Made by a program: the position numbers and the translations under genes
Part shown: piece by piece, positions 14,664-37,386 of the stretch
Layout of the letters: every line of letters begins with the position of its first letter
Numbering within the stretch: position 1 is the stretch's first letter
The notes under the pieces: generated by a model
The model's input: only the letters and a program-made list of their open reading frames with translations
The model's database searches: none
What the model was told of the DNA's origin: nothing
NCBI RefSeq assembly: GCF_030846775.1
Contig: NZ_CP132910.1
Coordinates: forward strand, 3,723,001-3,787,000
Source of the DNA: Geothrix sp. 21YS21S-2
GTDB lineage: Bacteria; Acidobacteriota; Holophagae; Holophagales; Holophagaceae
Length of the DNA: 64,000 nt
Direction of reading: 5' to 3'

Positions 14664-15953
14664 ATGGACGTGTCGCTGGAAATAAGCATCCCGGGCTCCG
14701 GCTCGACCCTCTTCTCCGGGGAGAGCCTGGAGTTCCCCGGCGCCCTGGCGGCCCTGGCCCTGGGGCCCGAAGCCACCCGGACGCGGGTGGGCGGCGGGGC
14801 CGCGGACATCGTGGTGGCCCGGGCCCTGGACACCCTGCCGGGCGCCGCCGTGCGCTCCGCGCTGCTGGAGCGCGCGCCCCTGGCGTTCCTGGAGGGCCTG
14901 TGGCTCGCCGCCTTCGCCGCGGGGGCCGCCGAGGCCGTGGCTGCCGTGGAGACGGAAGCCGGACTGGCGGAAGGGATCGCCGCCCTGGAGCGCCTCGGGG
15001 GGCCCGCCCTGCGGGTGGCGGTGGTGCCGCGCGCCTTCATGGCCTCAGAGGACACGGCGCTGATTCGCCTCCTGGAAGGGCGGCCCGCCCTGGCGTCGGC
15101 GCCCCGGGTGGAACTGGGCGGCAAGGCCGCGGCCGTCTTCTCCATCGAGGACCTGGTCGCGCTCTCGCACCGCTTCGCCGGGAGGGAGGCCGGTTCGCTG
15201 GTGCAGGTGCGGGGCGCCGTGAACCGGCCCGGCCTGCTGGAGGTTCCGCCCGGAACGACGCTGCGTTCGGTGATCTTCGAACGGTGCGGCGGGATGAGGG
15301 GCGCCAAGGCCTTCAAGTTCGCGCTGGCGGAGGGAAGCTTCATCCCCGCGGACGGCCTGGATGTTCCGGCCACCGGCCTGATCACCGTGGGGGATGAAGG
15401 GGACTGCGTGGTGGACCAGGCCCGCCGCGCCCTCGCCCTCACCGCCTACGAGAACTGCGGGATCTGCACCATCTGCCGGGAGGGGAGCCACCAGCTCGAG
15501 GAACTCCTGGCCGACGCGTCCTCGGGGGAGACCCGGGGCACCGACGAGGCCCTGATCCAGGAACTCGGCGCCGCCCTGCGGGAGGGGTCCCTCTGCGCCA
15601 TCGGGCGCCGGGCCCCCGATCCGCTCCTCTCCGGCCTCCGGCACTTCGCCGGGGACTTCGACGCGCACCTGAAGCGCAAGCGCTGCCCGGCCCTCGTCTG
15701 CAGGGCCTACGTCACCTTCCACATCCTGGGCGAGACCTGCACGGGCTGCGGCAAGTGCCTGGCGGTCTGCCCCGAGGGCGCCATCGAAGGCGAGGAGGAC
15801 TACATCCATGTCATCGACCCGGGGGCCTGCACCAGGTGCGGTCTCTGCCTCGACGTCTGTCCCCCGGAGGCGGCCGCCGTGGCCAAGGCCGGCGCACTGA
15901 AACCCCGAACCCCCAGGGAGCCCATTCCCGTGGGCACCTGGAAGAAGCGTTAA
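14664..15953 (+). CDS. NuoF-like Fe-S protein lacking the FMN/NADH signature, with C-terminal 2x4Fe-4S domain
   Basis: A 429-residue protein. The middle matches the NuoF SLBB region (VRGAVNRPGLLEVPPGTTLRSVI), then the NuoF 4Fe-4S motif NCGICTICREG with the distant SLCAIG. The C-terminus adds a two-cluster ferredoxin (CTGCGKCLAVCPEGAI, CTRCGLCLDVCPPEA). In normal NuoF the N-terminal half binds FMN and NADH through GRGGAGFP and GAGAYICGEETAL. Here the first is absent and the second is reduced to VPRAFMASEDTALIRLLEG. NADH binding was probably lost and moved to the upstream FAD/NAD(P) protein, leaving an electron-transfer subunit. This reading is inference from missing motifs. Confidence 0.8.
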   Translation: MDVSLEISIPGSGSTLFSGESLEFPGALAALALGPEATRTRVGGGAADIVVARALDTLPGAAVRSALLERAPLAFLEGLWLAAFAAGAAEAVAAVETEAGLAEGIAALERLGGPALRVAVVPRAFMASEDTALIRLLEGRPALASAPRVELGGKAAAVFSIEDLVALSHRFAGREAGSLVQVRGAVNRPGLLEVPPGTTLRSVIFERCGGMRGAKAFKFALAEGSFIPADGLDVPATGLITVGDEGDCVVDQARRALALTAYENCGICTICREGSHQLEELLADASSGETRGTDEALIQELGAALREGSLCAIGRRAPDPLLSGLRHFAGDFDAHLKRKRCPALVCRAYVTFHILGETCTGCGKCLAVCPEGAIEGEEDYIHVIDPGACTRCGLCLDVCPPEAAAVAKAGALKPRTPREPIPVGTWKKR

Positions 15954-17466: not shown

Positions 17467-19491
17467 ATGACGACGTACCCGCACCTCACGAGTCCCATCA
17501 GGATCGGCAAGCACACGTTCCGCAACCGCATCGAGTCCGCGCCGACGATCTTCTCGTCCCTGACCCTGGTGCCGTTCCTGTCGGCGCGCGTGCTCCGCAT
17601 GATCGAGGACCGCGCCAGGGGCGGGTGCGCCAGCGTGGTGCACGGGGAGATCTCCGTGAACTTCGACGACTCCCTCCGGCCCATCGTGGCCGGCGAGGGG
17701 AAGATGATCCGCCTCACGGTCGATTTCAAGGACCATGAGGCCCCGGCCTTCGCCACCTTCCGGAAGAACGCCGACGTCATCAAGCGCCACGGCGCGGTGG
17801 CCATGGCCGAGTTCTCCCACTTCGGCATCGAGAAGCCGCTCCTGGAGGACGGCATCCAGCCCCTGGGGCCTGTGGCCTTCACCCGGCCCGACGGCACCCC
17901 GGTGCGGGCCTTCGACGCCGGGACCATGGCCAAGGTCCAGGACGACTTCGCCACCGCCGCGGCCTTCATGCAGGCCGCCGGGTTCGACGGCGTCTTCGTG
18001 CACTGCGGCCACGGCTGGATGATCGGGCAGTTCCTGTCCCCCCGGAACAACACCCGCACCGACGAATTCGGCGGCAGCATCGCCAACCGGGGGCGGTTTC
18101 CCATGGCCATCCTCCGGGCCATCCGCGAGCGCTGCGGGCCGGACTTCCTCATCGAGATCCGGCTCAGCGGGCAGGAGAACCTGCCCGGAGGCATCACCCT
18201 CGAGGACACCGTGGGCTTCTGCAGGCTGCTGGAAGGCACGGGCCTGGTGGATCTGATCCACATCTCCGCCGGGCACTACTACAGCCCGGCCCGCTCCAAC
18301 GAGTTCTCCACCATCTTCCGGCCCCACGGCCTGAACGCGGACTACGCCGCGGCCGTCAAGAAGGCCGTGACCATCCCCGTGGCCGTGGTGGGGGGCATCA
18401 CCACCGCCGCCGACGCCGAGCGCATCATCGCCGAAGGCAAGGCGGACATCGTATCCATGGGCCGGCAGATGATCGCCGACCCCGACTTCGCCATGAAGGC
18501 CGTGAAGGGCAAGGGCGACGAGATCCGCGAGTGCCTGCGCTGCTGCGTGTGCTACCCCGGCCCCTCCGGCGAGCACGAGACGGACCCTCCGGGCCGCCAC
18601 TTCCCCGGCCTGGGTTCCTGTACCATCAATCCCTACAGCGTGAATTCCTTCTCCCACCACAAGGTGCTGCCCGAGGACCGGCCCCGGCCCGAGGGGTCCC
18701 GCAGGCTCCTGGTGGTCGGCGGCGGCCCCGGCGGCATGCAGGCCGCCATCGACGCCCACGACCGCGGCCACAAGGTGATCCTCATGGACGAGGCGGACCG
18801 CCTGGGCGGGACCCTGCGCCTCACCGACCACGACGTCTACAAGAAGGACCTCTTCCACTTCAAGGAACTCCTGGTGCGGGAGGTGGGCAGGCGCGCCATC
18901 TCCGTGCGCCTGAACACCCGGGTCACCCCCGAGGTGGTCCGGGAGATGGCCCCCGACGCCCTGGTCCTGGCCCTGGGCGCCGAGGCCGCCGTGCCCCCCA
19001 TCCCGGGGGTGGAGCGGGCCCTGAAGGCCTTCGACACCTACTTCCTGCCCGATGAGCGGATCGGCAGGCGCGTGGTCATGGTCGGCGGCGGACTCGTGGG
19101 CTGCGAGGTGGGCCTGGAACTGGCCCACAAGGGCCACGAGGTCGTGGTCGTGGAAATGAAGGAGCGCCTGGTGGCCGAGTTCATCGGCATCCACCGCACG
19201 GCCCTCCTGGACCGCATGGACGAGGTCGGCATCCGCAACCTGGTGCGCACCACCTGCAGGGAGATTCGGGAGGACGGTGTCGCGGCCGTCGACGCCGAAG
19301 GCAGGGAGACCTTCCTCCCGGCCGACACCGTGGTCCTCGGCCTGGGCTACACGGCCAGGAGCGAGAGCGCCCGGCTCCTGAGGGAGGCCGCGGGCAAGGC
19401 CCAGGTGTTCGAGGTGGGCGACTGCGTCCGCCCCGGGAAGGTGGGCGAGGCGGTGCAGGACGGCTACACGGCCGCCATGTCCATCGTCTGA
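17467..19491 (+). CDS. Old-Yellow-Enzyme-type 2-enoate/2,4-dienoyl-CoA reductase family protein
   Basis: A 674-residue protein. Residues 1-370 form the FMN TIM barrel (LTSPIRIGKHTFRNRIESAPT; GHGWMIGQFLSPRNNTRTDEFGGSIANRGRF). Next is the 4Fe-4S site (CLRCCVCY ... SCTINPYS), an FAD domain (GGGPGGMQAAIDAHDRGHKVILMDEADRLGG) and an NAD(P) domain (GGGLVGCEVGLELAHKGHEVVVVE). This is the layout of FadH, cinnamate/2-enoate reductases, BaiCD and the gut flavone ene-reductase group. It reduces an activated C=C bond with NAD(P)H. It begins 10 bases after the fumarate-reductase-like gene; two unrelated ene-reductases in a row suggest two double bonds or two pathway stages. Confidence 0.88.
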   Translation: MTTYPHLTSPIRIGKHTFRNRIESAPTIFSSLTLVPFLSARVLRMIEDRARGGCASVVHGEISVNFDDSLRPIVAGEGKMIRLTVDFKDHEAPAFATFRKNADVIKRHGAVAMAEFSHFGIEKPLLEDGIQPLGPVAFTRPDGTPVRAFDAGTMAKVQDDFATAAAFMQAAGFDGVFVHCGHGWMIGQFLSPRNNTRTDEFGGSIANRGRFPMAILRAIRERCGPDFLIEIRLSGQENLPGGITLEDTVGFCRLLEGTGLVDLIHISAGHYYSPARSNEFSTIFRPHGLNADYAAAVKKAVTIPVAVVGGITTAADAERIIAEGKADIVSMGRQMIADPDFAMKAVKGKGDEIRECLRCCVCYPGPSGEHETDPPGRHFPGLGSCTINPYSVNSFSHHKVLPEDRPRPEGSRRLLVVGGGPGGMQAAIDAHDRGHKVILMDEADRLGGTLRLTDHDVYKKDLFHFKELLVREVGRRAISVRLNTRVTPEVVREMAPDALVLALGAEAAVPPIPGVERALKAFDTYFLPDERIGRRVVMVGGGLVGCEVGLELAHKGHEVVVVEMKERLVAEFIGIHRTALLDRMDEVGIRNLVRTTCREIREDGVAAVDAEGRETFLPADTVVLGLGYTARSESARLLREAAGKAQVFEVGDCVRPGKVGEAVQDGYTAAMSIV

Positions 19492-19580: not shown

Positions 19581-20300
19581 ATGATAGGTCCCTACCTCAA
19601 CCTTGCCACGGTGGTCGTCGGCAGTTCCACCGGCGCCTTCCTGGGCGACAGGATCAGCCAGAACCTGCGCACCCGCCTTCCCATGGTCTTCGGCCTCTCG
19701 GCCATGGGCCTGGGCATCGCCACCATCATCCGCGTGAAGTACTTCCCCGCGGTCATCCTGGCCCTGCTGGTGGGCACCACCCTGGGCGAACTCCTCCACC
19801 TGGAGGACTGGATCATCAAGCTGTCCACCCACACCCGAACCCTGGTGGACCGCATCGCCAAGCCGAGGAACCAGGCCCTCTCCCACGAGGAGTTCCTGAA
19901 CCAGTTCGTGGCCATCCTGGTGCTCATCTGCTCCAGCGGTACGGGGATCTTCGGGACCATGAACGAGGCCATGACCGGGGACACCTCCCTGATCATCGTC
20001 AAGTCGGTCCTGGACCTGTTCTCGGTGGGGATCTTCGCCACGGCCCTGGGGTATTCCCTGGTGGCGGTGGCCATCCCCAACTTCCTCATCCAGGTGGCCC
20101 TGTTCTTCCTGTCCATCTGGATCCTGCCCCTGGTGTCCCCGGCCATGATCGCGGACTTCTCGGCCGCCGGGGGGCTCATCATGGTGGCCACGGGGTTCCG
20201 CATCGCCGGCATCAAGCACTTCCACGTGGCCAACATGCTGCCGGCCCTGCTGCTGATCATGCCCATTTCCTTCCTCTGGGCGCGGTATCTTGTGCACTAG
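19581..20300 (+). CDS. DUF554 family membrane protein
   Basis: A 239-residue protein with about six membrane segments and the family opening NLATVVVGSSTGAFLGDRISQNLR...P. The later sequence KSVLDLFSVGIFATALGYSLVAVAIPN is also typical. The family (YdfK/YqgA type) has no proven function and is often near regulators. It sits 8 bases before the LysR gene, so the two are likely cotranscribed. Nothing in the sequence identifies a transported substrate. Confidence 0.85.
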   Translation: MIGPYLNLATVVVGSSTGAFLGDRISQNLRTRLPMVFGLSAMGLGIATIIRVKYFPAVILALLVGTTLGELLHLEDWIIKLSTHTRTLVDRIAKPRNQALSHEEFLNQFVAILVLICSSGTGIFGTMNEAMTGDTSLIIVKSVLDLFSVGIFATALGYSLVAVAIPNFLIQVALFFLSIWILPLVSPAMIADFSAAGGLIMVATGFRIAGIKHFHVANMLPALLLIMPISFLWARYLVH

Positions 20301-20308
20301 GTGAATCC

Positions 20309-21223
20309 GTGAACCTCAACCAGATCAGCATGCGGCAGATCGACTACTTCCTGGCCGTGGCCCGCCACCTGAACTTCACCGAGGCGGCCAAGAGCCTCTA
20401 CGTGTCCCAGCCCGCCATCAGCAAGCAGGTGGCGCAGCTCGAGCACGACATCGGCGTGCCGCTTTTCCTGCGCACGAAGCGCTCGGTGCGCATGACCCCT
20501 GCGGGAATCGTGCTCCTGAAGGAGCTCTCCTCCATCCAGGAGCGCATCGAGGCGGCCGTGGCCAAGGCCCAGCACCCGGACCTGGGCCAGGACGCCAGCA
20601 TCACCATCGGCTGCCTGGAGGCCATGGAGATCGGCGTTTTCATGCGCCGGGCCATCAACGACTTCAAGAGCAGCTATCCGGGCGTCAAGGTGGTGCTGGA
20701 GCGCCACTCCTTCAAGACCCTGCGCCAGAAGCTGATCCACGGGGATCTGGACCTGGTGTTCACCCTCTCCTTCGAGATCGCGGACTGCCTGGGGATCCTC
20801 TCCGACTTCATCCAGCAGGCCAGGCCCGTGGTGCTGATGGCGGCCTCCCACCCCATGGCCTCCCGGGAACGGCTCACCCTGGCGGACCTCAAGGACGAGA
20901 ACTTCGTCACCATCTCCCGGGAGGAATCGCCCAGGGCCTTCGACGGGACCATCGACATGTGCCGGCGCCACGGCTTCACCCCCAACATCGTCAAGCAGCT
21001 GCCCAACGTGGAATCCATGCTGATGTGCGTGGAATCCGGCCTGGGGGTGTGCCTTTTCGACTCCACGATCCGGATCTACAACAGCGAGGACTTCCGGGTC
21101 TGCGAGCTGGACGAGAGGCCCATCGACGTGGTCATGGCCTGGAAGCGGGAGAACCTGAACCACGTGGTGCCGCTGTTCACCAACAGGGTCTCGGGCGTCC
21201 CGGGTGATAACCGGAACGAATGA
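20309..21223 (+). CDS. LysR-family transcriptional regulator
   Basis: A 304-residue protein with an N-terminal winged helix-turn-helix (MRQIDYFLAVARHLNFTEAAKSLYVSQPAISKQVAQLEHDIGVPLF) and a C-terminal effector-binding domain. The start is a GTG after CTAGGTGA; a later ATG eight codons in would also leave the domain intact. It follows the DUF554 gene by 8 bases and precedes the acyl carrier protein-hydrolase-acyl kinase genes in the same direction, which it may control. The inducer is unknown. Confidence 0.9.
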   Translation: MNLNQISMRQIDYFLAVARHLNFTEAAKSLYVSQPAISKQVAQLEHDIGVPLFLRTKRSVRMTPAGIVLLKELSSIQERIEAAVAKAQHPDLGQDASITIGCLEAMEIGVFMRRAINDFKSSYPGVKVVLERHSFKTLRQKLIHGDLDLVFTLSFEIADCLGILSDFIQQARPVVLMAASHPMASRERLTLADLKDENFVTISREESPRAFDGTIDMCRRHGFTPNIVKQLPNVESMLMCVESGLGVCLFDSTIRIYNSEDFRVCELDERPIDVVMAWKRENLNHVVPLFTNRVSGVPGDNRNE

Positions 21224-21324: not shown

Positions 21325-21573
21325 ATGGACGTTAGAGACAAAGCACTGGCCGTGATCATCAAGCGCGCCGCCGACGTATTCAAGGTCGATCCGGCCACCC
21401 TTTCCGCCGGCACGTCGTTCGAGACCGACCTGCAGGCCAAATCCGCCAACTACGTCCAGATCACCACCGTGCTCGAGGACGAATTCGACGTGGAGATCCC
21501 CTACATGGAATTCAAGCGCAAGAAGACGTTTGGCGAGGCCGCCGGCTACGTCGAACAGCTCGTCGAAGGCTGA
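21325..21573 (+). CDS. Acyl carrier protein (dedicated, non-housekeeping)
   Basis: An 82-residue PP-binding protein, helical and acidic, with Ser40 in DLQAKSANYV as the expected phosphopantetheine site. Ordinary fatty-acid ACPs read DSLD here; the sequence K-S-A-N is divergent, which argues for a special ACP. GAGGGACTCGTC precedes the chosen ATG; an in-frame ATG 33 bases upstream lacks a ribosome site. No ketosynthase or other fatty-acid gene is nearby. Instead it is followed by a CocE/NonD hydrolase, an acyltransferase, an acyl kinase and an AcpS-type transferase that could load this ACP. Confidence 0.85.
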   Translation: MDVRDKALAVIIKRAADVFKVDPATLSAGTSFETDLQAKSANYVQITTVLEDEFDVEIPYMEFKRKKTFGEAAGYVEQLVEG

Positions 21574-21605
21574 TTCAAACCCCCACCCAACCAGGAGCAT
21601 TCCGC

Positions 21606-23369
21606 ATGCACGAACAGCGTCCGGCACCGCAGTTGTTCTCCAAGAAGATCGTCTTCGACGGCGAGGAGATCGAGGTCTTCTACCGCAAGGCCCGCGAGCC
21701 CATCGACCCCGCCGAGGGCCTCGACCTCTCCAAGGAGAAGGGCCTGGCCGCCACGGCCCACGGCTTCTGCGCCAAGTTCAACCAGCGCACCTACAAGAAC
21801 GAGGACGGCATCCTCTGCGAGCAGGACATCCCCGTGACCCTGCGTGACGGGACGGTGATCTACTGCGACATCTACCGCAAGGAAGGCGAGGATAACATCC
21901 CCGTCCTGGTGTCCTGGAGCGCCTACGGCAAGCGCCCCGGCGACGGCATGTCGGAATGGCAGGTCATGGGCGTTCCCCCCGGCACCATCTCCACCATGAG
22001 CAAGTTCGAGTCCGCCGATCCCGGCTACTGGTGCCACCAGGGCTACGCGGTGGCCAACGTGGACCCCCGCGGCGTGGGCCACTCCCAGGGCGACATCTGC
22101 ATCATGGGCACCCAGGACGCACGGGACGGGTACGACTTCATCGAGTGGGTCGCCAAGCAGCACTGGTGCAACGGCAAGGTGGGCATGGCGGGCAACTCCT
22201 TCGTGGCCATGACCCAGATCCGCATCGCCGCCCAGCAACCCCCCAGCCTCGCCTGCATCGCCCCCTGGGAAGCCACCTGCGACATCTTCCGCGAGTCCAT
22301 CTACGAGGGCGGCATCCCTGCGCTCGGCTTCAACGAGTTCGTCGTGGCGTCCCTGACCGGGCCTTCCCTGGTGGAGGACATGGTGGCCAACGCCAAGGCC
22401 TACCCCTTCATGAACAAGTACTGGGAAGACAAGATTCCCAACTTCGCCAACGTCAAGATCCCCGTCTACGCCTGCGCCTCCTGGAGCCACTTCCACCTGC
22501 ACGGCGCCTTCAACTCCTTCCGCAAGATGAAGTCCACCCGGAAGTGGCTGCGCGCCCACCGGGAACAGGAATGGCCCGACGCCAGCACCCCGGCCAACAT
22601 CGAGGACCTCAAGCGCTTTTTCGACCGGTACCTGAAGAACATCCACAACGGCTGGGAGCTGACCCCCCGCTACCGCCTGGAGGTCATGGACGCCTACGAC
22701 TTCGACTACCAGACCTACCGCGGGGAGAAGGAATTCCCCCTGGCCCGCACCGAATACAAGCGCTTCTACCTGGATGCCGCCAAGGGCGCCCTAGCCCTGG
22801 AGCCCGTGCCGGTCAAGTCCAGCGTCTCCTATGACCCCGCCACCGAGCAGGCCAATTTCGACCTGGCCTTCGACGAGGACACCGAGATCACCGGGTACCT
22901 GTCGCTGCGCCTCTGGGTGGAGGCCGACGGCCACGACGAGATGGACATCATGGTCAACGTCCAGAAGCTCGACGAGGACGGCAACTGGCTGCCCACCAGC
23001 ATCCTCGGCGAGCCCCATCCCGGCCCCTGGGGCAAGATGCGGGTATCACGCCGCGCCCTGGACGAGAAGCTCACCACCAAGTTCGAGCCCGTGCAGTCCC
23101 AGTTGAAGGAAGAAAAGCTCGCCAAGGGTCAGATCGTCCCCGTTGACATCGCCATCGTGCCGGTCTCGAAGCTCTACCACAAGGGCCAGCAGCTGCGGGT
23201 CCAGGTGGCGGGCCGCTACATCCGCGAAGGCTGGTTCGAGCCCCTGATCTGGGAGACCGACAACAAGGGCAGGCACATCATCCACACCGGCGGGGAATAC
23301 GAGTCCTACCTGCAGGCCCCCGTCATCCCGGCCCGCTACAAGACCAAGAGCGGGTACACCCGGCGCTAG
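21606..23369 (+). CDS. CocE/NonD-type serine hydrolase (peptidase S15 family)
   Basis: A 587-residue alpha/beta hydrolase. The catalytic core has the oxyanion/strand sequence VLVSWSAYGKRPGDG, NVDPRGVGHSQG, and the nucleophile elbow GNSFVAM (Ser about 208). The C-terminal part is the beta-rich X-Pro dipeptidyl-peptidase C domain (LRVQVAGRYIREGWFEP). Family members cleave esters, amides or peptides. No signal peptide is present, so it is cytoplasmic. It starts 33 bases after the ACP gene. A role in releasing an acyl group that then passes to ACP or CoA, and on to the acyl phosphate enzymes downstream, is a hypothesis from gene order only. Confidence 0.83.
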   Translation: MHEQRPAPQLFSKKIVFDGEEIEVFYRKAREPIDPAEGLDLSKEKGLAATAHGFCAKFNQRTYKNEDGILCEQDIPVTLRDGTVIYCDIYRKEGEDNIPVLVSWSAYGKRPGDGMSEWQVMGVPPGTISTMSKFESADPGYWCHQGYAVANVDPRGVGHSQGDICIMGTQDARDGYDFIEWVAKQHWCNGKVGMAGNSFVAMTQIRIAAQQPPSLACIAPWEATCDIFRESIYEGGIPALGFNEFVVASLTGPSLVEDMVANAKAYPFMNKYWEDKIPNFANVKIPVYACASWSHFHLHGAFNSFRKMKSTRKWLRAHREQEWPDASTPANIEDLKRFFDRYLKNIHNGWELTPRYRLEVMDAYDFDYQTYRGEKEFPLARTEYKRFYLDAAKGALALEPVPVKSSVSYDPATEQANFDLAFDEDTEITGYLSLRLWVEADGHDEMDIMVNVQKLDEDGNWLPTSILGEPHPGPWGKMRVSRRALDEKLTTKFEPVQSQLKEEKLAKGQIVPVDIAIVPVSKLYHKGQQLRVQVAGRYIREGWFEPLIWETDNKGRHIIHTGGEYESYLQAPVIPARYKTKSGYTRR

Positions 23370-23375
23370 TCCCGC

Positions 23376-23490
23376 TTTTCCCAGCGCCTCTGCGTTTGGC
23401 TCCTTGCCTGGATTGGCCAGAGCGCCTGTCCATTGCCCCATCGTCGGGAATGCATTGGCAAGGAAATCAAACGCAGAGGCGCCGGGGAAA
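23376..23490. repeat. Long imperfect inverted repeat between hydrolase and acyltransferase genes
   Basis: The arms are about 23376-23408 and 23457-23490. The best block pairs GCGCCTCTGCGTTTG (23384-23398) with CAAACGCAGAGGCGC (23468-23482), flanked by TTTCCC/GGGGAAA outside and CTCCTTGCC/GGCAAGGA inside. The loop is about 50 bases. It is the only long intergenic dyad of this kind I see in the window. It has no U-run, so it is not a simple terminator; it could be a REP/MITE-like element or an mRNA stabiliser. It ends just before the acyltransferase ribosome site. Confidence 0.75.
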
Positions 23491-23512
23491 ATTCATGAAA
23501 AGGAATCCTGGT

Positions 23513-24511
23513 ATGAGCAGTGAATTCATCGCCCAATTGACCGCCCGGGCCGTCCAGAATCCGAAGACCATCATCTTCCCGGAATCCGGAAGCGAGAAGG
23601 TCCTCCAGGCTTCCGAGCGGCTCCTGAAGGCCGGGATCGCCCGGCCCATCCTCGTCGGGAAGAGGGACGCCATCGAGGCCAGGGCCGCTGAACTCCAGGT
23701 GTCCACCAAGGGCTTCGACTACGTGGACAACGAGGACGAGGCCGTCCTGGCCTACCTCATCCCGGCCTTCCTGGCCGTGAACCAGGACTTCTCCGAGAAG
23801 GCCCTGAACCGGAAGTTCAGGAACCCGCTCAATTTCGCAGCCGCCTGGGTGAAGCTGGGCCGGGCCGACTGCCTCGCGGCGGGCATCGACTGCTCCACGG
23901 GCGACGTGGTCCTGGCCAGCCAGCTCTTCATCGGGCTCCAGGACGGCATCTCCACCGTCTCCAGCTTCGGGGTCGTGGAGGCGCCCGGTTTCGAGACCTC
24001 GGAGGGGAACCTCTTCGCCATCGCGGACTGCGCGGTGTGCCAGAACCCCACCGCCTCGGAACTGTCGGACATCGCCTGCACCACCGCAGACACCATGAAG
24101 AGCCTCCTGGGGTGGGAACCCCGCGCGGCCCTGGTGTGCTTCTCCACGGACGGCAGCGGCCAGCACGAGATCACCGACAAGGTGAAGGAGGGCGTCCGGA
24201 TCGCCAACGAGCGCAGGCCGGACCTGGCCATCGACGGCGAGTTCCAGATCGACACGGCCCTCAAGCCGGCCGTGGCCGCCAAGAAGGTCCGGCGCCCCAG
24301 CCGGGTCGCGGGCCGCGCCAACATCATCGTGTTCCCGGACCTCAACGCGGGAAACATCGGCGTCAAGCTGATCCAGATGTTCGGCGGCGCCCTGGCCCAC
24401 GGGCCCCTCCTGCAGGGGTTCGCCAGGCCGGTGACGGACTTTTCACGCAGCGCGCCCATCGACGAAATCGTCGGCAACCTGACCATCCTCGTGGTCCGGG
24501 CCGGGGAATAG
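23513..24511 (+). CDS. Phosphate acetyltransferase-family acyltransferase (Pta type)
   Basis: A 332-residue protein of the PTA/PTB family, closest to the short phosphate acetyltransferase form (KTIIFPESGSEKVLQASERLLKAG; IDGEFQIDTALKPAV; IIVFPDLNAGNIGVKLIQMFGGALAHGPLLQGFARPVTDFSR). It converts acyl-CoA plus phosphate to acyl phosphate. ATG 23513 is chosen because AAAGGA lies 9 bases before it; an upstream in-frame ATG at 23495 is possible. The kinase gene begins 8 bases on. The kinase is of the butyrate type rather than AckA, so the true acyl group (acetyl, propionyl, butyryl or an aromatic-derived acid) is open. Confidence 0.88.
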   Translation: MSSEFIAQLTARAVQNPKTIIFPESGSEKVLQASERLLKAGIARPILVGKRDAIEARAAELQVSTKGFDYVDNEDEAVLAYLIPAFLAVNQDFSEKALNRKFRNPLNFAAAWVKLGRADCLAAGIDCSTGDVVLASQLFIGLQDGISTVSSFGVVEAPGFETSEGNLFAIADCAVCQNPTASELSDIACTTADTMKSLLGWEPRAALVCFSTDGSGQHEITDKVKEGVRIANERRPDLAIDGEFQIDTALKPAVAAKKVRRPSRVAGRANIIVFPDLNAGNIGVKLIQMFGGALAHGPLLQGFARPVTDFSRSAPIDEIVGNLTILVVRAGE

Positions 24512-24519
24512 GGGAAGAC

Positions 24520-25626
24520 ATGGACAAGGTCTACACCATCTTCGTAATCAATCCCGGGTCCACCTCCACCAAGATCGGCCTCTTCCGGAACGAGACCGAG
24601 GTGTTCTCGGTCAACGTCACCCACGATGCCGCCGAACTGAAGAAGTTCGCCCAGATCAGCGACCAGTTCGACTATCGCCGGGACACCATCCTGGCGGAGA
24701 TGGCCAGGCGCGGCCTGGCCATGGCGTCCGTGGACGTCTTCGTGGGCCGGGGCGGGGGCCTGGTGGGCCTCGAGGGCGGCACCTACCCGGTGAACGACAT
24801 CCTCCTCGAGCACGCCCGGGTGGGGTTCACCGTGAAGCACCCCGCCACCCTCGGGAGCCAGCTGGCCCACGCCTTCGCCACCCAGTACGGCGGCCGGGCC
24901 TTCGTGGTCAACCCCCCCGACGTGGACGAGATGGACGAGGTGGCCCGGGTCTGCGGGTTCGCCGACCTGGCCCGGGAGAGCCGGGGCCACCCGCTCAACC
25001 AGAAGGAGGTCGGGATCCGGCACGGGAAGCGGGTGGGAACCCCCTACGAGGACCTCAACCTCGTCATCGCCCACATCGGCGGCGGGGTCTCCGTGACGGC
25101 CCACAGGAAGGGCCGCATGGTGGACACCGTGGACGTGATCAACGGCGACGGGCCCATGGCCCCGACCCGGTGCGGCGCCGTCCCCGCCAGCGGCGTGGTG
25201 AAGCTCTGCTTCTCCGGGAAGTTCACCGAGCGCGAGATGTACGACCGCATCACCAAGAACGGCGGTCTCGTGGACCACCTCGGCACCTCGGACGTCCTGG
25301 AGATCCTGGAGCGCATCGGGAAGGGGGACGCCTACGCGAAGCTGGTGTACGACGCCATGATCTACCAGATCGCCAAGTACATCGGCGCCTACGCGACGGT
25401 CCTGAGCGGCGAGGTGGACGCCATCCTCCTCACCGGCGGCATCGCCCGTGAGAACTACCTCGTGGGCGAGATCCGGAGTAGGGTGAACTACATCGCCCCC
25501 GTCCACGCCTATCCGGGCGAGTTCGAGATGGAGGCCCTGGCCAGCGGCGCCTACCGCGTCATGACCGGCCAGGAGCAGGCCAAGACCTACACGGGTGTCC
25601 CGGTATGGAGCCACTTCTCACGTTGA
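24520..25626 (+). CDS. buk: Butyrate/branched-chain acid kinase, copy 1
   Basis: A 368-residue acetokinase-superfamily protein with the phosphate motif VINPGSTSTKIGLFRNE, the butyrate kinase signature VGRGGGLVGLEGGTYPVND, and HIGGGVSVTAHRKGRMVDTVD. It makes ATP from acyl phosphate supplied by the upstream transferase. The family includes butyrate, isobutyrate and 2-methyl acid kinases, and specificity is not readable. A second copy lies at 58410-59468 with a different transferase partner. The start GAAGACATG directly follows the transferase stop. Confidence 0.9.
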   Translation: MDKVYTIFVINPGSTSTKIGLFRNETEVFSVNVTHDAAELKKFAQISDQFDYRRDTILAEMARRGLAMASVDVFVGRGGGLVGLEGGTYPVNDILLEHARVGFTVKHPATLGSQLAHAFATQYGGRAFVVNPPDVDEMDEVARVCGFADLARESRGHPLNQKEVGIRHGKRVGTPYEDLNLVIAHIGGGVSVTAHRKGRMVDTVDVINGDGPMAPTRCGAVPASGVVKLCFSGKFTEREMYDRITKNGGLVDHLGTSDVLEILERIGKGDAYAKLVYDAMIYQIAKYIGAYATVLSGEVDAILLTGGIARENYLVGEIRSRVNYIAPVHAYPGEFEMEALASGAYRVMTGQEQAKTYTGVPVWSHFSR

Positions 25627-25643
25627 TCCGCCCCGGCTCGGCC

Positions 25644-26129
25644 ATGAAGGTGGCCGGGGTGGGCGTGGACCTGCTCCTTCTGGAGCGGTTCAGGTGCCTG
25701 GGGAGGGACCTGGACGACCCGTTCTACCGGAAGACCTTCACGGAAGGGGAACGGGTGCAGGCGGGCGAGCATGGGGATCCCGTCCTCATGCTCGCCTTTT
25801 CGTTTGCCGGGAAGGAAGCGGTGTTCAAGTGCCTTGGGATGGACGGGAACCGGGTCCGCCTGAACGAGATCGAGGTGCTTGGCAATCAAGCCGGAGCCTC
25901 CGCGAGCCTCCGGGGGCACCTGGCGCGCCAGGCCTGGGCGAAGGGTATCGGCGGGACCCACCTCCAACTCTGGCATGAGGGTGCTTTCATCCGGGCACTG
26001 GCCGTGGCCGAGCGCATGCCTGCCCGCCCCGATCCTCTGGCTGCGCCTGAAACGGAAGCCGAAAGCCCGGAACGACTCGATGGCCACCCCCACGCCACCG
26101 CATCCGAACACCGGGTGGGGTCAGGATGA
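25644..26129 (+). CDS. AcpS-type 4'-phosphopantetheinyl transferase
   Basis: A 161-residue protein with the two family motifs: VGVDLLLLERF (Asp9) and FSFAGKEAVFKCLGM (Lys57-Glu58). These bind magnesium and CoA, so the enzyme should attach phosphopantetheine to a carrier protein; the divergent ACP at 21325 is the obvious client. An in-frame ATG at 25605, inside the end of the kinase gene, would add 13 residues; the AcpS fold normally starts right at MKVAGVGVD. The last 35 residues (rich in Pro, Glu, His) have no counterpart in normal AcpS and overlap the convergent GNAT gene by 9 bases. Confidence 0.8.
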   Translation: MKVAGVGVDLLLLERFRCLGRDLDDPFYRKTFTEGERVQAGEHGDPVLMLAFSFAGKEAVFKCLGMDGNRVRLNEIEVLGNQAGASASLRGHLARQAWAKGIGGTHLQLWHEGAFIRALAVAERMPARPDPLAAPETEAESPERLDGHPHATASEHRVGSG

Positions 26130-27353: not shown

Positions 27354-30080
27354 TTACACCTTGCCCAAATACCGGTGCATGGCCTCGGCCGCACGGCGGC
27401 CCTGGCCCATGGCGAGGATCACCGTCGCCCCGCCCGTGATGACGTCGCCGCCGGCGAAGACGCCCGGCACCGTGGTCTCCCCGGTGGCCTCGTCCACCCG
27501 CACCACGCCGCCCTTGAGGGTCTCGAGGCGGTTCTCGGTCTGGGCGATCAGCGGGTTCACGGAGAAGCCCAGGGCCACCACCAGGGTGTCGCAGGGCAGG
27601 GTCACGGTCCCGGCGGTGGCGCGCACGCCCCGGCGGCCGTCGGGGCCGGGTTCGGTGAGCTCCATGACGGCGCACTCGATGTGGGTGATCCAGCCCTTGT
27701 CGTTGCCGATGCAGCGCAGGGGGTTGGTGAGGAAGTGGAAGTGGACGCCCTCCTCCCCGGTGTGCTCCAGCTCCTCCTTGCGGGCGGTGGATTCCTTGAT
27801 GGTGCGGCGGTAGACGATCGAGACCGATTCGGGGCCCAGGCGCCGCGCGGCGCGGGAGGCGTCCATGGCGGTGTTGCCGCAGCCCACGATGACCACGTGC
27901 CTGCCGACCGTCACCGGCGTGCCGGATTCGGGGAAGAGGTCGGCGCGCATGAGGTTGATGCGGGTGAGGAACTCGTTGGCGGTGTAGATGCCCTTGAAGT
28001 CCTCGCCCGGGATCCCCAGCATGCCGGGCAGGCCCGCGCCGGTGCCCATGAACACGGCGTCGTTTTCGGACCGGAGCTCGGCCAGGGTCATGGAGCGGCC
28101 CACCAGGGTGTTCAGGACGAACTTCACGCCCATGCGGCGCAGCGTGTCCACTTCCTTCTCCACGATGGCGTTGGGCAGGCGGAACTCGGGAATGCCGTAG
28201 AGCAGCACCCCTCCGGGGCGGTGCAGGGCGTCGTAGACCGTGACGTCGTGGCCCTTCCCGGCCAGCTCGCCGGCGACGGTGAGGCCCGCGGGGCCCGCGC
28301 CCACCACGGCCACCTTGCGGCCCGTGGCCGGCGCCATGGGCGGCGTCTCGGGCTCGGCGGCCAGCAGCGCGTCGGCGGCGAAGCGCTCCAGGCGCCCGAT
28401 GCCCACGGCCTCGCCCTTGATGCCCACCACGCACTTGGCCTCGCACTGCTTCTCCTGCGGGCACACCCGGCCGCACACGGCGGGCAGGCTCGAGGACTGC
28501 TTGAGGATGCGGGCGGCGCCCAGGGGATCGCCGGCCTCGATGCGCTTGACGAAGGCCGGGATGTCGATGTTGACCGGGCACCCCTCGATGCACTTGGGCA
28601 CCTTGCAGTCCAGGCAGCGCGCGGCCTCCAGCCGGGCCTGCTCGGCGTTCAGCGCCAGGGTCACTTCCGAGAAGTTGCCCACGCGGATGGCCGGATCCTG
28701 GCAGGCCGCCACCTGGCGGGAGATCTTCATGCGCTGGGCGGGCTTGAGGGAGGGCAGGTCCAGGTTCTGCCAGTCCAGGTCGGCCACCGGCGCGATGAAG
28801 GGCATGTCCGCGTCCGTCACCGGGTGGCTGGACAGGCCCAGGTTGCACACGTGGTCCTGGGCGGCGGTCTCGTCCTCCTTGTACCAGTTCTGGCGCATGC
28901 GGAGCATGTTGAAGTCGACCTTGTGGCCGTCGAAGTCGGGGCCGTCGAAGCACGCGAACTTCATCTCGCCGCCCACCGACACTCGGCAGCCGCCGCACAT
29001 GCCCGTACCGTCGACCATGAGGGCGTTGAGGCTCACCAGCGTGAAGATGCCGCGCTCCCGGGTGGCCTCGGAGACCGCCTGCATCATGGGCATGGGGCCC
29101 ACGGCCACCACCTCGGCCACGGGTTCGCGCTCCAGGATCTCGGCCAGGGGATGGGTGACGATGCCCTTGCGGCCCAGGGTGCCGTCGTCGGTGGTGACGA
29201 TGAGCTCGTCGGAGGCCAGCTCCAGCTCCTTGGCCAGCAGCACGCGCTCCCTGGACCTGCCGCCCAGGATGGTGATCACCCGCTGGCCCCTGGCCTTGAG
29301 GGCCTTGGCCGCGGGCAGGATGGCCGCGCTGCCGTAGCCGCCGGCCACCAGCACCACGGTGCCCTCCTCGACCAGCTCGCTGGGCTCCCCCATGGGGCCC
29401 GCCACCGCGTACAGAAGGTCGCCGGCGCTCAGCCTGCCCATGGCCCGGGTGGTGGCGCCCACCTCCACCATGATGAAGCGGATCCAGCCCTCGCGGGCAT
29501 CGCCGTCGGCCAGGGTCAGGGGGATGCGCTCGCTCTTCTCGAAGGGGGCCACCATGAGGAACTGGCCGGGCCTGCGGCCCCGCGCCACCATGGGGGCCTG
29601 GACGATGAAGCTCCAGGTCTCCGGGGCCAGGAGGCGCTTCTCCAGGATCCGGTAGCCCTCGGCGTCCACGTCGGCGCGCCCGTTGAGGGATTTCCCCCGC
29701 AGCAGGGGGAGCATGAGGTGCTCCTCGGTGCCGATGTGCTGCCGGATCAGGCCCAGCAGTTCGCGCGCGAGCTCCGGGAAAATGCGGGCGCCGCCGGTGG
29801 CCAGGAGGCTTTCCGCGCGCTCCCGGATCTCCTGGTGGTCGGACAGGAGCTGCTCGCACAGGGCCTCGGCCCCCACCTCCTCCAGGAGGGGCAGGAGCTC
29901 CAGCTCCTCGGCCCGGTTGTGGGCGCACAGGTCGGTGGCCACCCAGCGCAGGAGGCCGGTCAGGTTCGGCCAGTCCCGGGAGGCCAGGGCCTCCTCCAGG
30001 TGATCCAGGCGGTCCAGGGCCGCGGCATGGAAGGCATGCCACGGGGCCATGCTGGTTTCGTCGAAGGGGGAAAGGGGCAT
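27354..30080 (-). CDS. Fusion: hemerythrin domain + NfnA-like ferredoxin/NAD reductase + NfnB-like NADPH oxidoreductase
   Basis: A 908-residue protein with three parts. Residues 1-160 are a hemerythrin HHE four-helix domain (HAFHAAALDRLDHLEEAL; CAHNRAEELELLPLLEE; SDHQEIRERAESLL; RQHIGTEEHLMLPLL), which binds a di-iron site. About 165-430 is an NfnA/SudB-like flavodoxin reductase with FAD motif RRPGQFLMVAP, the NAD(P) loop VAGGYGSAAILPAAKALKARG and the 2Fe-2S motif MCGGCRVSVGGEMKFACFDGP. From about 450 it is NfnB/SudA/GltD-like, with double cysteine clusters (CLDCKVPKCIEGCPVNIDIP; CGRVCPQEKQCEAKC), FAD motif GAGPAGLTVAGELAGKG and NADPH motif VGCGNTAMDASRAARRLG. Nfn enzymes couple ferredoxin and NADH to NADP by electron bifurcation. 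ATG 30080 is chosen because the hemerythrin fold starts there. Confidence 0.9.
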   Translation of the reverse strand: MPLSPFDETSMAPWHAFHAAALDRLDHLEEALASRDWPNLTGLLRWVATDLCAHNRAEELELLPLLEEVGAEALCEQLLSDHQEIRERAESLLATGGARIFPELARELLGLIRQHIGTEEHLMLPLLRGKSLNGRADVDAEGYRILEKRLLAPETWSFIVQAPMVARGRRPGQFLMVAPFEKSERIPLTLADGDAREGWIRFIMVEVGATTRAMGRLSAGDLLYAVAGPMGEPSELVEEGTVVLVAGGYGSAAILPAAKALKARGQRVITILGGRSRERVLLAKELELASDELIVTTDDGTLGRKGIVTHPLAEILEREPVAEVVAVGPMPMMQAVSEATRERGIFTLVSLNALMVDGTGMCGGCRVSVGGEMKFACFDGPDFDGHKVDFNMLRMRQNWYKEDETAAQDHVCNLGLSSHPVTDADMPFIAPVADLDWQNLDLPSLKPAQRMKISRQVAACQDPAIRVGNFSEVTLALNAEQARLEAARCLDCKVPKCIEGCPVNIDIPAFVKRIEAGDPLGAARILKQSSSLPAVCGRVCPQEKQCEAKCVVGIKGEAVGIGRLERFAADALLAAEPETPPMAPATGRKVAVVGAGPAGLTVAGELAGKGHDVTVYDALHRPGGVLLYGIPEFRLPNAIVEKEVDTLRRMGVKFVLNTLVGRSMTLAELRSENDAVFMGTGAGLPGMLGIPGEDFKGIYTANEFLTRINLMRADLFPESGTPVTVGRHVVIVGCGNTAMDASRAARRLGPESVSIVYRRTIKESTARKEELEHTGEEGVHFHFLTNPLRCIGNDKGWITHIECAVMELTEPGPDGRRGVRATAGTVTLPCDTLVVALGFSVNPLIAQTENRLETLKGGVVRVDEATGETTVPGVFAGGDVITGGATVILAMGQGRRAAEAMHRYLGKV

Positions 30081-30107
30081 TCGGGGCTCCGGTCGTTGGA
30101 ATGGATC

Positions 30108-30153
30108 GGGGATGGGAAGGGGCGGCGCGGACGGCGCCAGCCTTCCCATCCCC
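30108..30153. terminator. Strong stem-loop between the phloroglucinol-type operon and the Nfn fusion
   Basis: GGGGATGGGAAGG (30108-30120) pairs perfectly with CCTTCCCATCCCC (30141-30153) around a 20-base loop that can fold further. No T-run follows on the minus strand. It lies in the 93-base gap between two minus-strand genes, so it may attenuate read-through into the fusion gene. Confidence 0.6.
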
Positions 30154-30173: not shown

Positions 30174-31016
30174 CTAGGCCTTGGCGGGCAGGCCAAGAAT
30201 GGCCCGCGCCTCGGCGGGGGTGGCGATCTCCTTGTTGAGCTCGGCGACGATGCGCCTGGTGCGGTCGACGAACTCCACGTTGGACCTGGCCAGCACGCCC
30301 TTGGAGTAGAGGATGTTGTCCTCCATGCCCACCCGGACGTGCCCGCCCAGGGCGAGGGCGGCGTACATGATGGGCAGGTGGCCCTTGCCGATGCCCAGGG
30401 CGCCCCAGGTGCAGCCGGCGGGGAGCAGGCTCTTGAGGAACACGAGGTTCTCGACCGTGGCGTCCATGCCGCCGGCGGCGCCCAGCACGAACTGGAAGTG
30501 CAGGGGGGCCTTCAGGAAGCCCTTCTTGAGGTAGTGGACGGCGTTGCTGATCATGCCGGCGTCGAAGATCTCGATCTCCGGCTTGACCCCGTTCTCCTGC
30601 ATGCAGGTGCCCAGCTTCTCAAGGAAGCGGGGGCTGTTCTCGAAGACCGAGGTGTGCAGCCAGTTCATGGAACCGCAGTCGTAGGAGGCCAGCTCGGGCT
30701 TCAGGGCGATGAGGTGCCTCATGCGGTCCTCGTCGGCCAGTCCCAGCTGGCCCGAGGTGGTCAGGTTCAGGACGATGTCGCAGTCCGTGGCCCGGATGAG
30801 GTTCACGGTCTCGGTGAACTTCTCGAAGCTCATGGAGGACTTGTTGTTGTCATCCCGCACGTGGATGTGGGCGATGGAGGCGCCGGCCTTCCAGCAGGCG
30901 TAGACCTCCTCGGCGATCTCCCCGGGCTGGAGCGGGACGTGGGGCGTGTCCTCCTTGGAGGGCCAGGCGCCGGTGGGGGCGACGGTCAGGATGACCTTGC
31001 TGCTGAGATCGGACAT
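30174..31016 (-). CDS. Beta-keto acid cleavage enzyme (BKACE, DUF849); triacetate-lyase candidate
   Basis: A 280-residue TIM-barrel protein of the BKACE/3-keto-5-aminohexanoate cleavage family: KVILTVAPTGAWPSKEDTPHVPLQPGEIAEEVYACWKAGASIAHIHVRDD, where H50 and H52 are the zinc ligands. The family condenses a beta-keto acid with acetyl-CoA and cleaves it to acetoacetate plus a new CoA ester. The lysine-fermentation form sits with kamA/kamDE/kal, none of which is here. In this operon (CoA transferase, cupin, SDR, HCDH, thiolase) triacetate (3,5-dioxohexanoate) is a better substrate. GGAGG six bases upstream supports the start. Confidence 0.88.
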   Translation of the reverse strand: MSDLSSKVILTVAPTGAWPSKEDTPHVPLQPGEIAEEVYACWKAGASIAHIHVRDDNNKSSMSFEKFTETVNLIRATDCDIVLNLTTSGQLGLADEDRMRHLIALKPELASYDCGSMNWLHTSVFENSPRFLEKLGTCMQENGVKPEIEIFDAGMISNAVHYLKKGFLKAPLHFQFVLGAAGGMDATVENLVFLKSLLPAGCTWGALGIGKGHLPIMYAALALGGHVRVGMEDNILYSKGVLARSNVEFVDRTRRIVAELNKEIATPAEARAILGLPAKA

Positions 31017-31030
31017 GGCGTCCTCCGGGG

Positions 31031-32215
31031 CTACTGCAGGTTCTCTACGATCAGGGCCGTGCCCATGCCGCCGCCGATGCAGAGGGTGGCCAGGCCGAAC
31101 CGGGCGTTCCTGCGCTTCAGTTCATGGATGAGGGTGGTGGCGATGCGCGCGCCCGAGGCCCCGATGGGGTGGCCCAGGGCGATGGCGCCGCCGTTGACGT
31201 TGGTGAAGGCGGGGTCCAGGTCCAGTCCGGCGCTGACGGCCAGGGCCTGGGCCGCGAAGGCCTCGTTGGCCTCCACGAGGCCCAGGTCCTTTACGGTGAG
31301 GCCGGCCTTGGCCAGGGCCTTCCGGGACGCGGGCACGGGGCCGTAGCCCATGACGGAGGGATCCACGCCGGCCGAGGCATGGGAGACGATGCGGGCCAGG
31401 GGCTTGAGGCCCAGCTCCCGGGCCTTTTCGGCGGACATGACGAGGGTCATGGCGGCGCCGTCGTTGATGCCCGAGGCGTTGCCGGCGGTGACGGTGCCGT
31501 CCTTCCTGAACGCCGGGCGGAGCCTGGCGAAGCCTTCCAGGGAGGAGCCGAAGCGGGGGAATTCGTCCGTGTCGAAGACCTTGGGTTCGCCCTTCTTCTG
31601 GGGCATGACCACGGGAACGATCTCGTCCTTGAACCGGCCCTCCTTGACGGCGGCCTCGGCGCGCTGCTGGCTGACCAGGGCGAAGGCGTCCTGGGCCTCG
31701 CGGCTGATGCCGTACTGCGCGGCGACGTTCTCGGCCGTGATGCCCATGTGGTAGTCGTTGTAGATGTCCCACAGGCCGTCGCAGATCATGGAATCGACCA
31801 GGGTGTCGTTGCCCATCTTGTAGCCGAAACGGGCCTTGTTGAGCAGGTAGGGGGAGTTGCTCATGCTCTCCGTGCCGCCGGCCAGGACCACGTCGGCGTC
31901 CCCGGCCTTGATGAGCTGGGCGGCGAGGCTGATGGCCCGCAGTCCGGAGCCGCATACCTTGTTGATGCTGAAGCAGCTCACCGTCCCGGGCAGGCCGGCC
32001 TTCAGGGCCACCTGCCGGGCCACGTTCTGGCCCAGGCCGGCGGACAGGACGTTGCCGATGATCACTTCATCCACGGCGGAGGGGTCGACCCCGGCCCTCT
32101 GGAGAGCCTCCTTGGCGGCGATGCTGCCCATTTCCACGGCGGATAGGCCGGCCAGGGAACCACCGAAGGTTCCGATGGCCGTTCGGACGGCACTGACGAT
32201 GACTGCTTCACGCAT
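31031..32215 (-). CDS. atoB: Acetyl-CoA C-acetyltransferase (thiolase)
   Basis: A 394-residue thiolase. The acylated Cys is C88 in [11 protein letters not shown]; the catalytic His is in [15 protein letters not shown] and the second Cys in [12 protein letters not shown] near the C-terminus. It splits acetoacetyl-CoA into two acetyl-CoA. The [15 protein letters not shown] start follows GAGG at good distance; an in-frame ATG 12 bases earlier lacks that spacing. Its 15-base gap to the BKACE gene indicates one transcript. Acetoacetyl-CoA would come from the CoA transferase encoded in the same operon. Confidence 0.93.
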
Positions 32216-32260
32216 GGTTAACCTCAAACGGAGTAAAGGACTTGATCAGGCGGAGGGGGG

Positions 32261-33196
32261 CTAGTTCTTCTGGTACAGCACGTCGATCAGATAGTTGATC
32301 AGGCGCTTCCGGGAGGCTTCGATGTCCTGGGGGGACCAGGTCTGGAACCCCTGGCCGGACTTGAAGCCCAGTTCCCCCTTCCGCACCCGCTCCACGAGTA
32401 GAGGCGACGGGCTGGGGGCGTTCTCCAGGTGGGGGAGGATGTAGGTGTGGATGGCCAGGGTGAGGTCCGTGCCCACCATGTCGGCGTTCTCCATGGGGCC
32501 CAGGATCGGCAGGCGCAGGCCGAAGCCCAGCCGGATCGCCTCGTCCACGGAGGCCGCGTCGGCGATTCCGTTCTCGACGATGGAGATCGCCTCCCGCCAG
32601 AGGGCGTGCTGGAGGCGGTTGGCGAGGAAGCCCGGAACGTCGCGGTTGACGCGCACGGGGTGCTTGCCGCACCTGCGGAGCACCTCCATGGTGGCGTCCA
32701 CCACGGCGGGGTCCGTGTATTCCGACCGGACGACTTCCACCAGGGGGATCAGGTAGGGCGGGTTCCAGAAGTGGGTGCCCACCAGCCGGTGCCGCGAGCG
32801 CACCTTCGCGCCGATCTCGGTGACGCTCATCACCGAGGTTCCGGTGGCGAAGATGGTCTCCGGGCCGCAGAGCCTCTCCAGTTCGGCGAAGAGGTCCTGC
32901 TTGAGTTCCATCTGCTCGGGGATGCACTCCACCACCAGGTCGGCTGCGGCCACCGCCTGCGCCAGGGTCTCGCAGGGCGCGACCCGGGCCAGGATGGCGG
33001 TGATCTCCTCCTCGGTCATGACGCCCTTGGCCTCCAGGAGGTTCAGGTTGCCCAGGATGCGCTCCAGGGCGGCCTTGCCGGGGGTGAAACTGTCGTAGAG
33101 CGTCACGGCGTGGTCCGCGCGGGAGGCGAACACCTGGGCGATGCCGCAGCCCATGAGCCCCGAGCCGATGACGGCCACGTTCCGGATTTCCTTCAT
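32261..33196 (-). CDS. 3-hydroxyacyl-CoA dehydrogenase family; 3-hydroxy-5-oxohexanoate dehydrogenase candidate
   Basis: A 311-residue protein with the Rossmann motif VIGSGLMGCGIAQVFA and the catalytic His in VGTHFWNPPYLIPLVEVVRS, a member of the HCDH/L-gulonate dehydrogenase-like group. The catalytic context is FWNPP, which also occurs in members that act on free hydroxy acids instead of CoA esters. In the phloroglucinol scheme the third step is NAD-dependent oxidation of 3-hydroxy-5-oxohexanoate to triacetate by a protein of this family. The alternative is ordinary 3-hydroxybutyryl-CoA dehydrogenase. AAGGAG upstream supports the start. Confidence 0.85.
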   Translation of the reverse strand: MKEIRNVAVIGSGLMGCGIAQVFASRADHAVTLYDSFTPGKAALERILGNLNLLEAKGVMTEEEITAILARVAPCETLAQAVAAADLVVECIPEQMELKQDLFAELERLCGPETIFATGTSVMSVTEIGAKVRSRHRLVGTHFWNPPYLIPLVEVVRSEYTDPAVVDATMEVLRRCGKHPVRVNRDVPGFLANRLQHALWREAISIVENGIADAASVDEAIRLGFGLRLPILGPMENADMVGTDLTLAIHTYILPHLENAPSPSPLLVERVRKGELGFKSGQGFQTWSPQDIEASRKRLINYLIDVLYQKN

Positions 33197-33218
33197 GGTG
33201 GTGCTCCTTTCTCTGCCT

Positions 33219-34007: not shown

Positions 34008-34023
34008 GGCGCTCGGTCCTCGA

Positions 34024-34365: not shown

Positions 34366-34401
34366 GGTGGATTCTCCAGAGGCTGGCAGGTCGCCGGCGG
34401 A

Positions 34402-35995: not shown

Positions 35996-37386
<1,391 letters not shown>

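Follow-up and report, generated by a model that had tools for sequence, protein, structure and literature searches.

What can an acyl carrier protein (ACP) contribute to catabolism when its gene stands in one run with those of a serine hydrolase, a phosphotransacylase, an acyl kinase and a phosphopantetheinyl transferase? The question is raised by five genes of Geothrix sp. 21YS21S-2, which lie in a stretch of 64,000 nucleotides at positions 3,723,001 to 3,787,000 of contig NZ_CP132910.1 (hereafter the window, whose own coordinates are used throughout; G and L numbers denote the genomes and loci compared with it). The reading that we favor, with a probability of about 0.55 and on sequence comparisons, is that this module replaces phloretin hydrolase (Phy) in anaerobic flavonoid catabolism and would conserve the energy of the cleavage as ATP.

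The five-gene run

The run consists of the following genes.

21325 to 21573, plus strand: dedicated ACP (PF00550), with Ser40 in AKSAN and Lys replacing the usual Asp of DSL
21606 to 23369, plus strand: CocE/NonD (S15) serine hydrolase (Peptidase_S15 and PepX_C, nucleophile Ser198), a proposed acyl-phloroglucinol:ACP acyltransferase
23495 to 24511, plus strand: Pta-type phosphotransacylase (PF01515), proposed to convert acyl-ACP to acyl-phosphate
24520 to 25626, plus strand: acyl kinase of the butyrate kinase family (Buk; TIGR02707), the proposed ATP-forming step
25644 to 26129, plus strand: AcpS-type phosphopantetheinyl transferase (PF01648), with a catalytic Asp and a KEA motif

All five identities, first proposed from the letters alone, score over their Pfam cut-offs: the ACP with 26.9 bits for PP-binding (curated cut-off 20.8), the hydrolase with 131 bits for Peptidase_S15 and 106.8 bits for PepX_C, Pta with 292.8 bits for PTA_PTB (PF01515), Buk with 79.6 bits for Acetate_kinase and AcpS with 30.5 bits for ACPS. 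Two starts were corrected. Pta begins at 23495, and AcpS most likely begins at Met 25644, so that it no longer overlaps Buk. The genes are co-oriented behind a LysR gene and separated by 32, 125, 8 and 17 bases. A very stable hairpin (z -8.1) spans positions 23370-23494, the whole interval from the hydrolase gene to Pta; it was dismissed as a dispersed repeat, since it occurs once in the window and has no counterpart in the other loci checked.

Within NCBIfam, the hydrolase belongs to CocE_NonD (TIGR00976; 220.8 bits, cut-off 66.3) and Buk to butyrate kinase TIGR02707 (431 bits, cut-off 289). Pta reaches 244.6 of 311 bits for the Pta equivalog and 59 of 410 for Ptb, the ACP scores 39 bits where every ACP equivalog needs 66 or more, and AcpS lies below every equivalog cut-off as well, so that these three are divergent members of their families. 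The view of the ACP as a divergent carrier with Ser40 in AKSAN is borne out: this serine (counted from 21325) aligns with the DSL serine of Bacillus subtilis ACP, and both the replacement of DSL by KSA and the missed equivalog cut-off set the protein apart from the ACPs of fatty acid synthesis. The KS motif is invariant in 22 ACP orthologues adjoining CocE. Ser198, His318 and Asp325 of the hydrolase are invariant in its alignment, Asp325 lying outside any evident GWxD motif, and 11 aligned cluster AcpS proteins keep the catalytic Asp near the N terminus and the KEA motif. In a DPF motif, Pro takes the place of an arginine, which may be a hint to the contact between AcpS and ACP. With the cluster AcpS included, the host (5.25 Mb genome, single contig) encodes three proteins of the ACPS superfamily, and the 60 near relatives of the host that were searched, five of them congeners, hold no orthologue of the ACP, merely weak matches to housekeeping ACPs.

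Conservation, fusion and phylogeny

The five genes are a true conserved set and not a chance neighborhood. A hydrolase scan of representative bacterial genomes, which excluded records very near the window, found relatives at 68-78% identity in Firmicutes only, and relatives at 48-57% identity mostly in Firmicutes with a few from other phyla. In all close relatives an ACP gene lies directly 5′ of the hydrolase gene, followed in most by Pta and Buk, and more than 20 Firmicutes genomes or loci possess the ACP-hydrolase gene set. Twenty-four ACP-linked loci could be compared, where contig ends make all gene counts lower bounds: Pta is found in 23, Buk in 22 and AcpS in 10, while reductase genes are also frequent (GltD-like in 15, a flavone-reductase homologue in 14, VprA-like in 13 and NuoF-like in 11). 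Two ACP domains are even fused to the N-terminus of the hydrolase in two genomes (L199 and L202; 813 and 841 residues), with AcpS, Pta and Buk adjoining the fusion genes. The idea that the genes act as a set, which the original prediction would have given up had the ACP and hydrolase genes been unlinked in every relative, is clearly strengthened by this linkage in more than 20 genomes and by the fusions.

In the hydrolase tree, the ACP-linked enzymes form one clade (support 99/97) of 28 rows, 23 of them with an ACP and the other five either without one or cut by contig ends. The window copy is nested within this clade, which indicates lateral transfer. ACP and hydrolase distances are correlated (r 0.68), a correlation that shared descent alone could produce. 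Plasmid-borne copies of the module were discounted, as the plasmid matches are merely CocE relatives less than 60% identical.

The same set is kept across orders together with polyphenol genes. This contradicts the very improbable notion that the module serves ordinary lipid or secondary-metabolite acyl metabolism and lies near catabolic genes by chance. ACP and AcpS are usually biosynthetic, as that notion would have it, but the linked loci that were read contain no fatty-acid or polyketide synthase set, and such a role was rejected.

Apparent exchange with phloretin hydrolase

The distribution of the module follows that of DPGC, the cyclohydrolase of phloroglucinol breakdown. DPGC occurs in 13 of 20 Firmicutes genomes with the hydrolase versus none of 57 genomes of one order without it (Fisher p 4e-10); among 397 Lachnospiraceae the figures are 9 of 14 hydrolase-bearing genomes versus 13 of the 383 others (p 1e-9). 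Flavone-reductase homologues accompany the module in the window island as they do in 14 of the 24 linked loci. The opposite pattern holds for Phy, present in 3 of 23 genomes with an ACP-linked hydrolase versus all seven with an ACP-less CocE (p 6e-5) and, among DPGC-positive genomes, in 3 of 12 with the module versus 18 of 20 without it (p 3e-4). The host genome itself has no match to Phy (PF18089).

Three genomes without a CocE-type hydrolase at the threshold used (G787, G731 and G593) reveal where Phy resides instead. On a single contig of G787, a phloroglucinol operon and Phy are followed by FLR, VprA-like, GltD-like and NuoF-like genes. The neighbors of Phy in G731 and G593 are GltD-like genes and long VprA-like genes (922-929 residues), with DUF1097. 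Since Phy keeps company with the same reductase genes and is missing from most genomes that have the module, Phy and the ACP module appear to share one slot. At the level of sequence, gene identities, linkage, fusion and a common clade are thereby joined by a gene replacement. A strict replacement of Phy by CocE was rejected, because Phy and the module coexist in G062, G129 and G159.

The shared slot bears on two other accounts of the module. CocE might cleave a phenolic O-ester (galloyl, caffeoyl or depside) and load its acyl group onto ACP, from which Pta and Buk would then form ATP. We consider this rather unlikely. It would suit the polyphenol setting, the esterase activity of characterized CocE/S15 relatives and the invariant nucleophile Ser198, but Phy, a C-C hydrolase by its described activity, holds the same slot beside the same reductases, and reduction of the FLR/Fcr type is needless for ester cleavage. 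The module might also run in the activating direction, with Buk and Pta spending ATP to charge an aryl acid onto ACP, a VprA-like enzyme reducing the acyl-ACP and CocE acting as the releasing thioesterase. Pta and Buk are generally known to be reversible, and the VprA-like reductase accompanies over half of the linked loci (13/24). This account is nevertheless improbable: it would cost fermenting anaerobes ATP, two ACP-CocE-Pta-Buk clusters (L105, L208) have no nearby reductase, and the reductase genes pair with Phy in the three genomes above without ACP, Pta or Buk, which means that the reductase can dispense with a substrate bound to ACP.

Proposed route

For substrate, acyl acceptor, direction, acyl-serine formation and ATP yield, we infer the following sequence. 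A flavonoid would be reduced to a dihydrochalcone by the FLR homologue, an Fcr-like Old-yellow-enzyme (OYE) and the VprA-like/NuoF/GltD reductase. The CocE-type hydrolase would then attack the aryl ketone of a C-acyl-phloroglucinol such as phloretin and free phloroglucinol. As substrate, a flavonoid-derived dihydrochalcone or another C-acyl-phloroglucinol agrees best with the evidence. The arylpropionyl group on Ser198 would be transferred to the dedicated ACP at its pantetheine thiol, the ACP being primed by the local AcpS. Subsequently, the Pta homologue would exchange acyl-ACP with phosphate to yield an acyl-phosphate, from which the Buk homologue would form ATP and arylpropionate. Phloroglucinol would feed the adjacent operon (SDR, TfD, TAL, thiolase and CoA transferase), with DPGC supplied from elsewhere in the genome. 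The original prediction had already suggested that an acyl group on ACP or CoA is conserved as ATP, and a path from acyl-ACP through acyl-phosphate to ATP is the best reading of the gene set.

An ACP-Pta-Buk-CocE cluster in another genome (L059) contains, at 9135-11171, a thiolase with PhlC among its PDB matches that adjoins a fusion of a ChsH2-type OB-fold protein and an ACP domain. Their position near ACP, Pta and Buk suggests a second route for loading the carrier, and the thiolase is possibly another carrier-dependent C-C cleaving enzyme. A 363-residue protein of this locus was considered as PhlA-like and set aside for want of a PDB match.

The surrounding island

The original prediction regarded the module as self-contained. 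This part did not hold, as the genes represent one step of a larger flavonoid/phloroglucinol island of about 32 kb (5.9-37.4 kb of the window) with reductases, transporters, regulators and a phloroglucinol operon. The genes 5′ of the module are as follows.

5886 to 7160, plus strand: MFS transporter
7181 to 8125, plus strand: flavodoxin-fold flavone reductase (FLR) homologue, sharing 32% identity with the F. plautii enzyme (7d38)
8122 to 9516, minus strand: sigma-54 activator, apparent paralogue of that at 35933-37390
11276 to 12562, plus strand: MFS transporter
12626 to 14656, plus strand: NuoG/GltD-like flavoprotein, electron-input subunit
14664 to 15953, plus strand: NuoF-like electron-input subunit, fused to a VprA-like protein in L218
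15978 to 17456, plus strand: FAD_binding_2 ene-reductase related to vinyl phenol reductase (VprA), 48-70% identical in clostridial clusters
17467 to 19491, plus strand: OYE plus FAD reductase with a BaiCD/Fcr-like architecture, candidate reductase for cleavage of the flavanone C ring
19581 to 20300, plus strand: DUF554 membrane protein, also in the L107 cluster
20309 to 21223, plus strand: LysR regulator directly 5′ of ACP; a 60% identical LysR holds the same position in L038

The sole PDB match of the protein at 7181-8125 is 7d38 of Flavonifractor plautii (E 5.8e-29, 32% over 280 residues), which places it within the full-length similarity of 30% or more applied to FLRs (PMC7862272); FLRs that share 28% identity reportedly act in the same way (PMC11868195; PMC7862272). 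The OYE/FAD protein has the domain arrangement published for Fcr, a reductase that cleaves flavanones (PMC11868195). The VprA-like, NuoF-like and GltD-like proteins are predicted to be one NADH-fed flavoprotein reductase set. In L218, NuoF-type and ferredoxin domains are fused to the FAD_binding_2 domain of the VprA-like protein, which suggests that NuoF feeds electrons to this reductase. The VprA-like proteins of L218 (6483-9251) and L223 (9148-11937) have 922 and 929 residues. Membrane proteins of DUF554 (window, L107) or DUF1097 recur beside clusters (L041, L042, L196, L218 and L223) and are possible transporters.

The other side of the module holds the phloroglucinol operon and its flanking genes.

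27354 to 30149, minus strand: NfnAB-like NAD(P) transhydrogenase fusion, final gene in the minus-strand run to which the operon belongs
30174 to 31016, minus strand: BKACE protein, candidate triacetate acetoacetate-lyase (TAL), 75% identical to TAL of a DPGC/PGR operon
31031 to 32227, minus strand: thiolase, 66% identical in L111
32261 to 33196, minus strand: 3-hydroxyacyl-CoA-dehydrogenase-type enzyme, TfD candidate
33219 to 34007, minus strand: SDR found in phloroglucinol operons L117 and L118, not a PGR orthologue
34024 to 34365, minus strand: small cupin, 49-59% identical in L111, L112, L117, L118 and L210
34402 to 35705, minus strand: CoA-transferase subunits AtoA and AtoD, 51-65% identical in phloroglucinol operons
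35933 to 37390, plus strand: sigma-54 activator, divergent from the operon

The minus-strand genes at 30174-35705 match the phloroglucinol operon of PMC10470551, and TAL, thiolase, TfD-type enzyme, SDR, cupin and CoA transferase all occur in DPGC-containing operons elsewhere. The small cupin is kept in the operons of the window, L111, L112, L117, L118, L210 and L212. An extra N-terminal part of about 165 residues in the NfnAB-like fusion appears hemerythrin-like, by eye only. The SDR was rejected as a phloroglucinol reductase (PGR), as gluconate dehydrogenase-type SDRs match it better than 5g4k; the window holds no PGR orthologue, and the rest of the genome was not searched for one. A DPGC homologue (64% identity) lies at 2.075 Mb in the same genome, about 1.65 Mb from the window, and the congeners G001 and G002 have none.

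The distance of DPGC from the operon invites one further account, in which dihydrophloroglucinol or a related cyclic diketone is the target of CocE and a ring-opened oxoacyl group is loaded onto ACP, as an energy-saving alternative to DPGC. The window operon indeed has no local DPGC, and the module genomes G061 and G071 possess TAL but no DPGC. Against such a ring opening, DPGC is present in the host and in 12 other ACP-linked genomes, and the module swaps with Phy rather than with DPGC. Two clusters combine both: in L046, a DPGC-family cyclase lies within about 7 kb of ACP-CocE, as does a phloroglucinol reductase that closely matches PDB 5g4k (E 1e-158), and G577 carries the module and the phloroglucinol set on one contig. 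We give this account long odds.

Two further acyl-phosphate gene sets were seen. At 53747-60378 of the window, two POR-family 2-oxoacid oxidoreductase genes lie beside another Buk and Pta/Ptb pair, a second energy-conserving acyl set as in aryl- or indolepyruvate oxidation. Near 4.69 Mb of the same genome (L094, 7969-10347), one open reading frame of 792 residues fuses Pta-type and acetate/butyrate-kinase-type domains.

Weight of the evidence and significance

Several observations weigh against the replacement of Phy by an ATP-conserving module. Characterized CocE enzymes are ester hydrolases, and Pta and Buk could operate in the activating direction. AcpS was detected in just 10 of the 24 linked loci, the window FLR homologue is 32% identical to its reference, the Fcr assignment of 17467-19491 is based on architecture alone, and in three genomes, as noted, the module stands together with Phy. 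Several module genomes (e.g. G063, G064) have neither DPGC nor a close TAL, which means either that the ring set free is not necessarily phloroglucinol or that these assemblies have gaps. The genome counts are not phylogenetically independent, the statistics ignore kinship and some genomes are incomplete.

With these points included, it is about an even bet that a serine hydrolase turned acyltransferase breaks a polyphenol C-C bond onto ACP while Pta and Buk conserve the energy as ATP, and that this represents a previously undescribed class of catabolic carrier-protein system, which reached an unrelated lineage by lateral transfer out of Firmicutes of gut and soil. In flavonoid catabolism, cleavage of the dihydrochalcone is already a known step; the energy-conserving carrier route would be new if the chemistry holds. 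The literature searched, which included few subscription papers, describes Phy and phloroglucinol pathways and no carrier-protein route for flavonoid or phloroglucinol breakdown. If this is correct, fermenters of gut and soil could draw ATP directly from flavonoids, with a bearing on which microbes grow on polyphenols and on the enzyme-latch concept for carbon stored in anoxic settings, and ACPs would have a new kind of catabolic use. These genes are now annotated as generic esterase, butyrate kinase and "acyl carrier protein", and the module gene set may serve as a marker for microbiome searches.

Comparison with known systems

The window operon shares TAL, TfD-type, thiolase and CoA-transferase homologues with the phloroglucinol cluster (PGR, DPGC, TfD, TAL; PMC10470551). 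Many linked clostridial genomes have the full cluster, whereas here DPGC is distant and the window has no PGR orthologue.

PlsX/FakAB and the Pta-AckA and Ptb-Buk pairs likewise interconvert acyl-ACP or acyl-CoA and acyl-phosphate, with a kinase step to ATP. They serve lipid synthesis or CoA esters, in contrast to the dedicated carrier and the polyphenol catabolism proposed for the module. Citrate lyase and malonate decarboxylase also use a carrier protein in catabolic C-C cleavage, but with a different carrier family and prosthetic group and without coupling to Pta and Buk. To our knowledge, no characterized CocE/NonD hydrolase has an ACP partner. The window hydrolase shares family membership and the conserved serine with these enzymes (TIGR00976; 3IB3 of Staphylococcus aureus, cocaine esterase) and differs from them in being of a type paired with or fused to ACP.

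The closest counterpart in position is Phy (DAPG_hydrolase, PF18089) of the FLR/Fcr/Phy pathway, which occupies the same slot beside the same reductases and phloroglucinol operon and breaks the bond that the module is proposed to break, the one joining phloroglucinol to the acyl side chain. Phy works as one enzyme and sets free the acid itself, and as its cut is plain hydrolysis, the energy of dihydrochalcone cleavage is lost. The module, in contrast, combines an unrelated serine hydrolase with a carrier, a phosphotransacylase and a kinase, which together would keep that energy.

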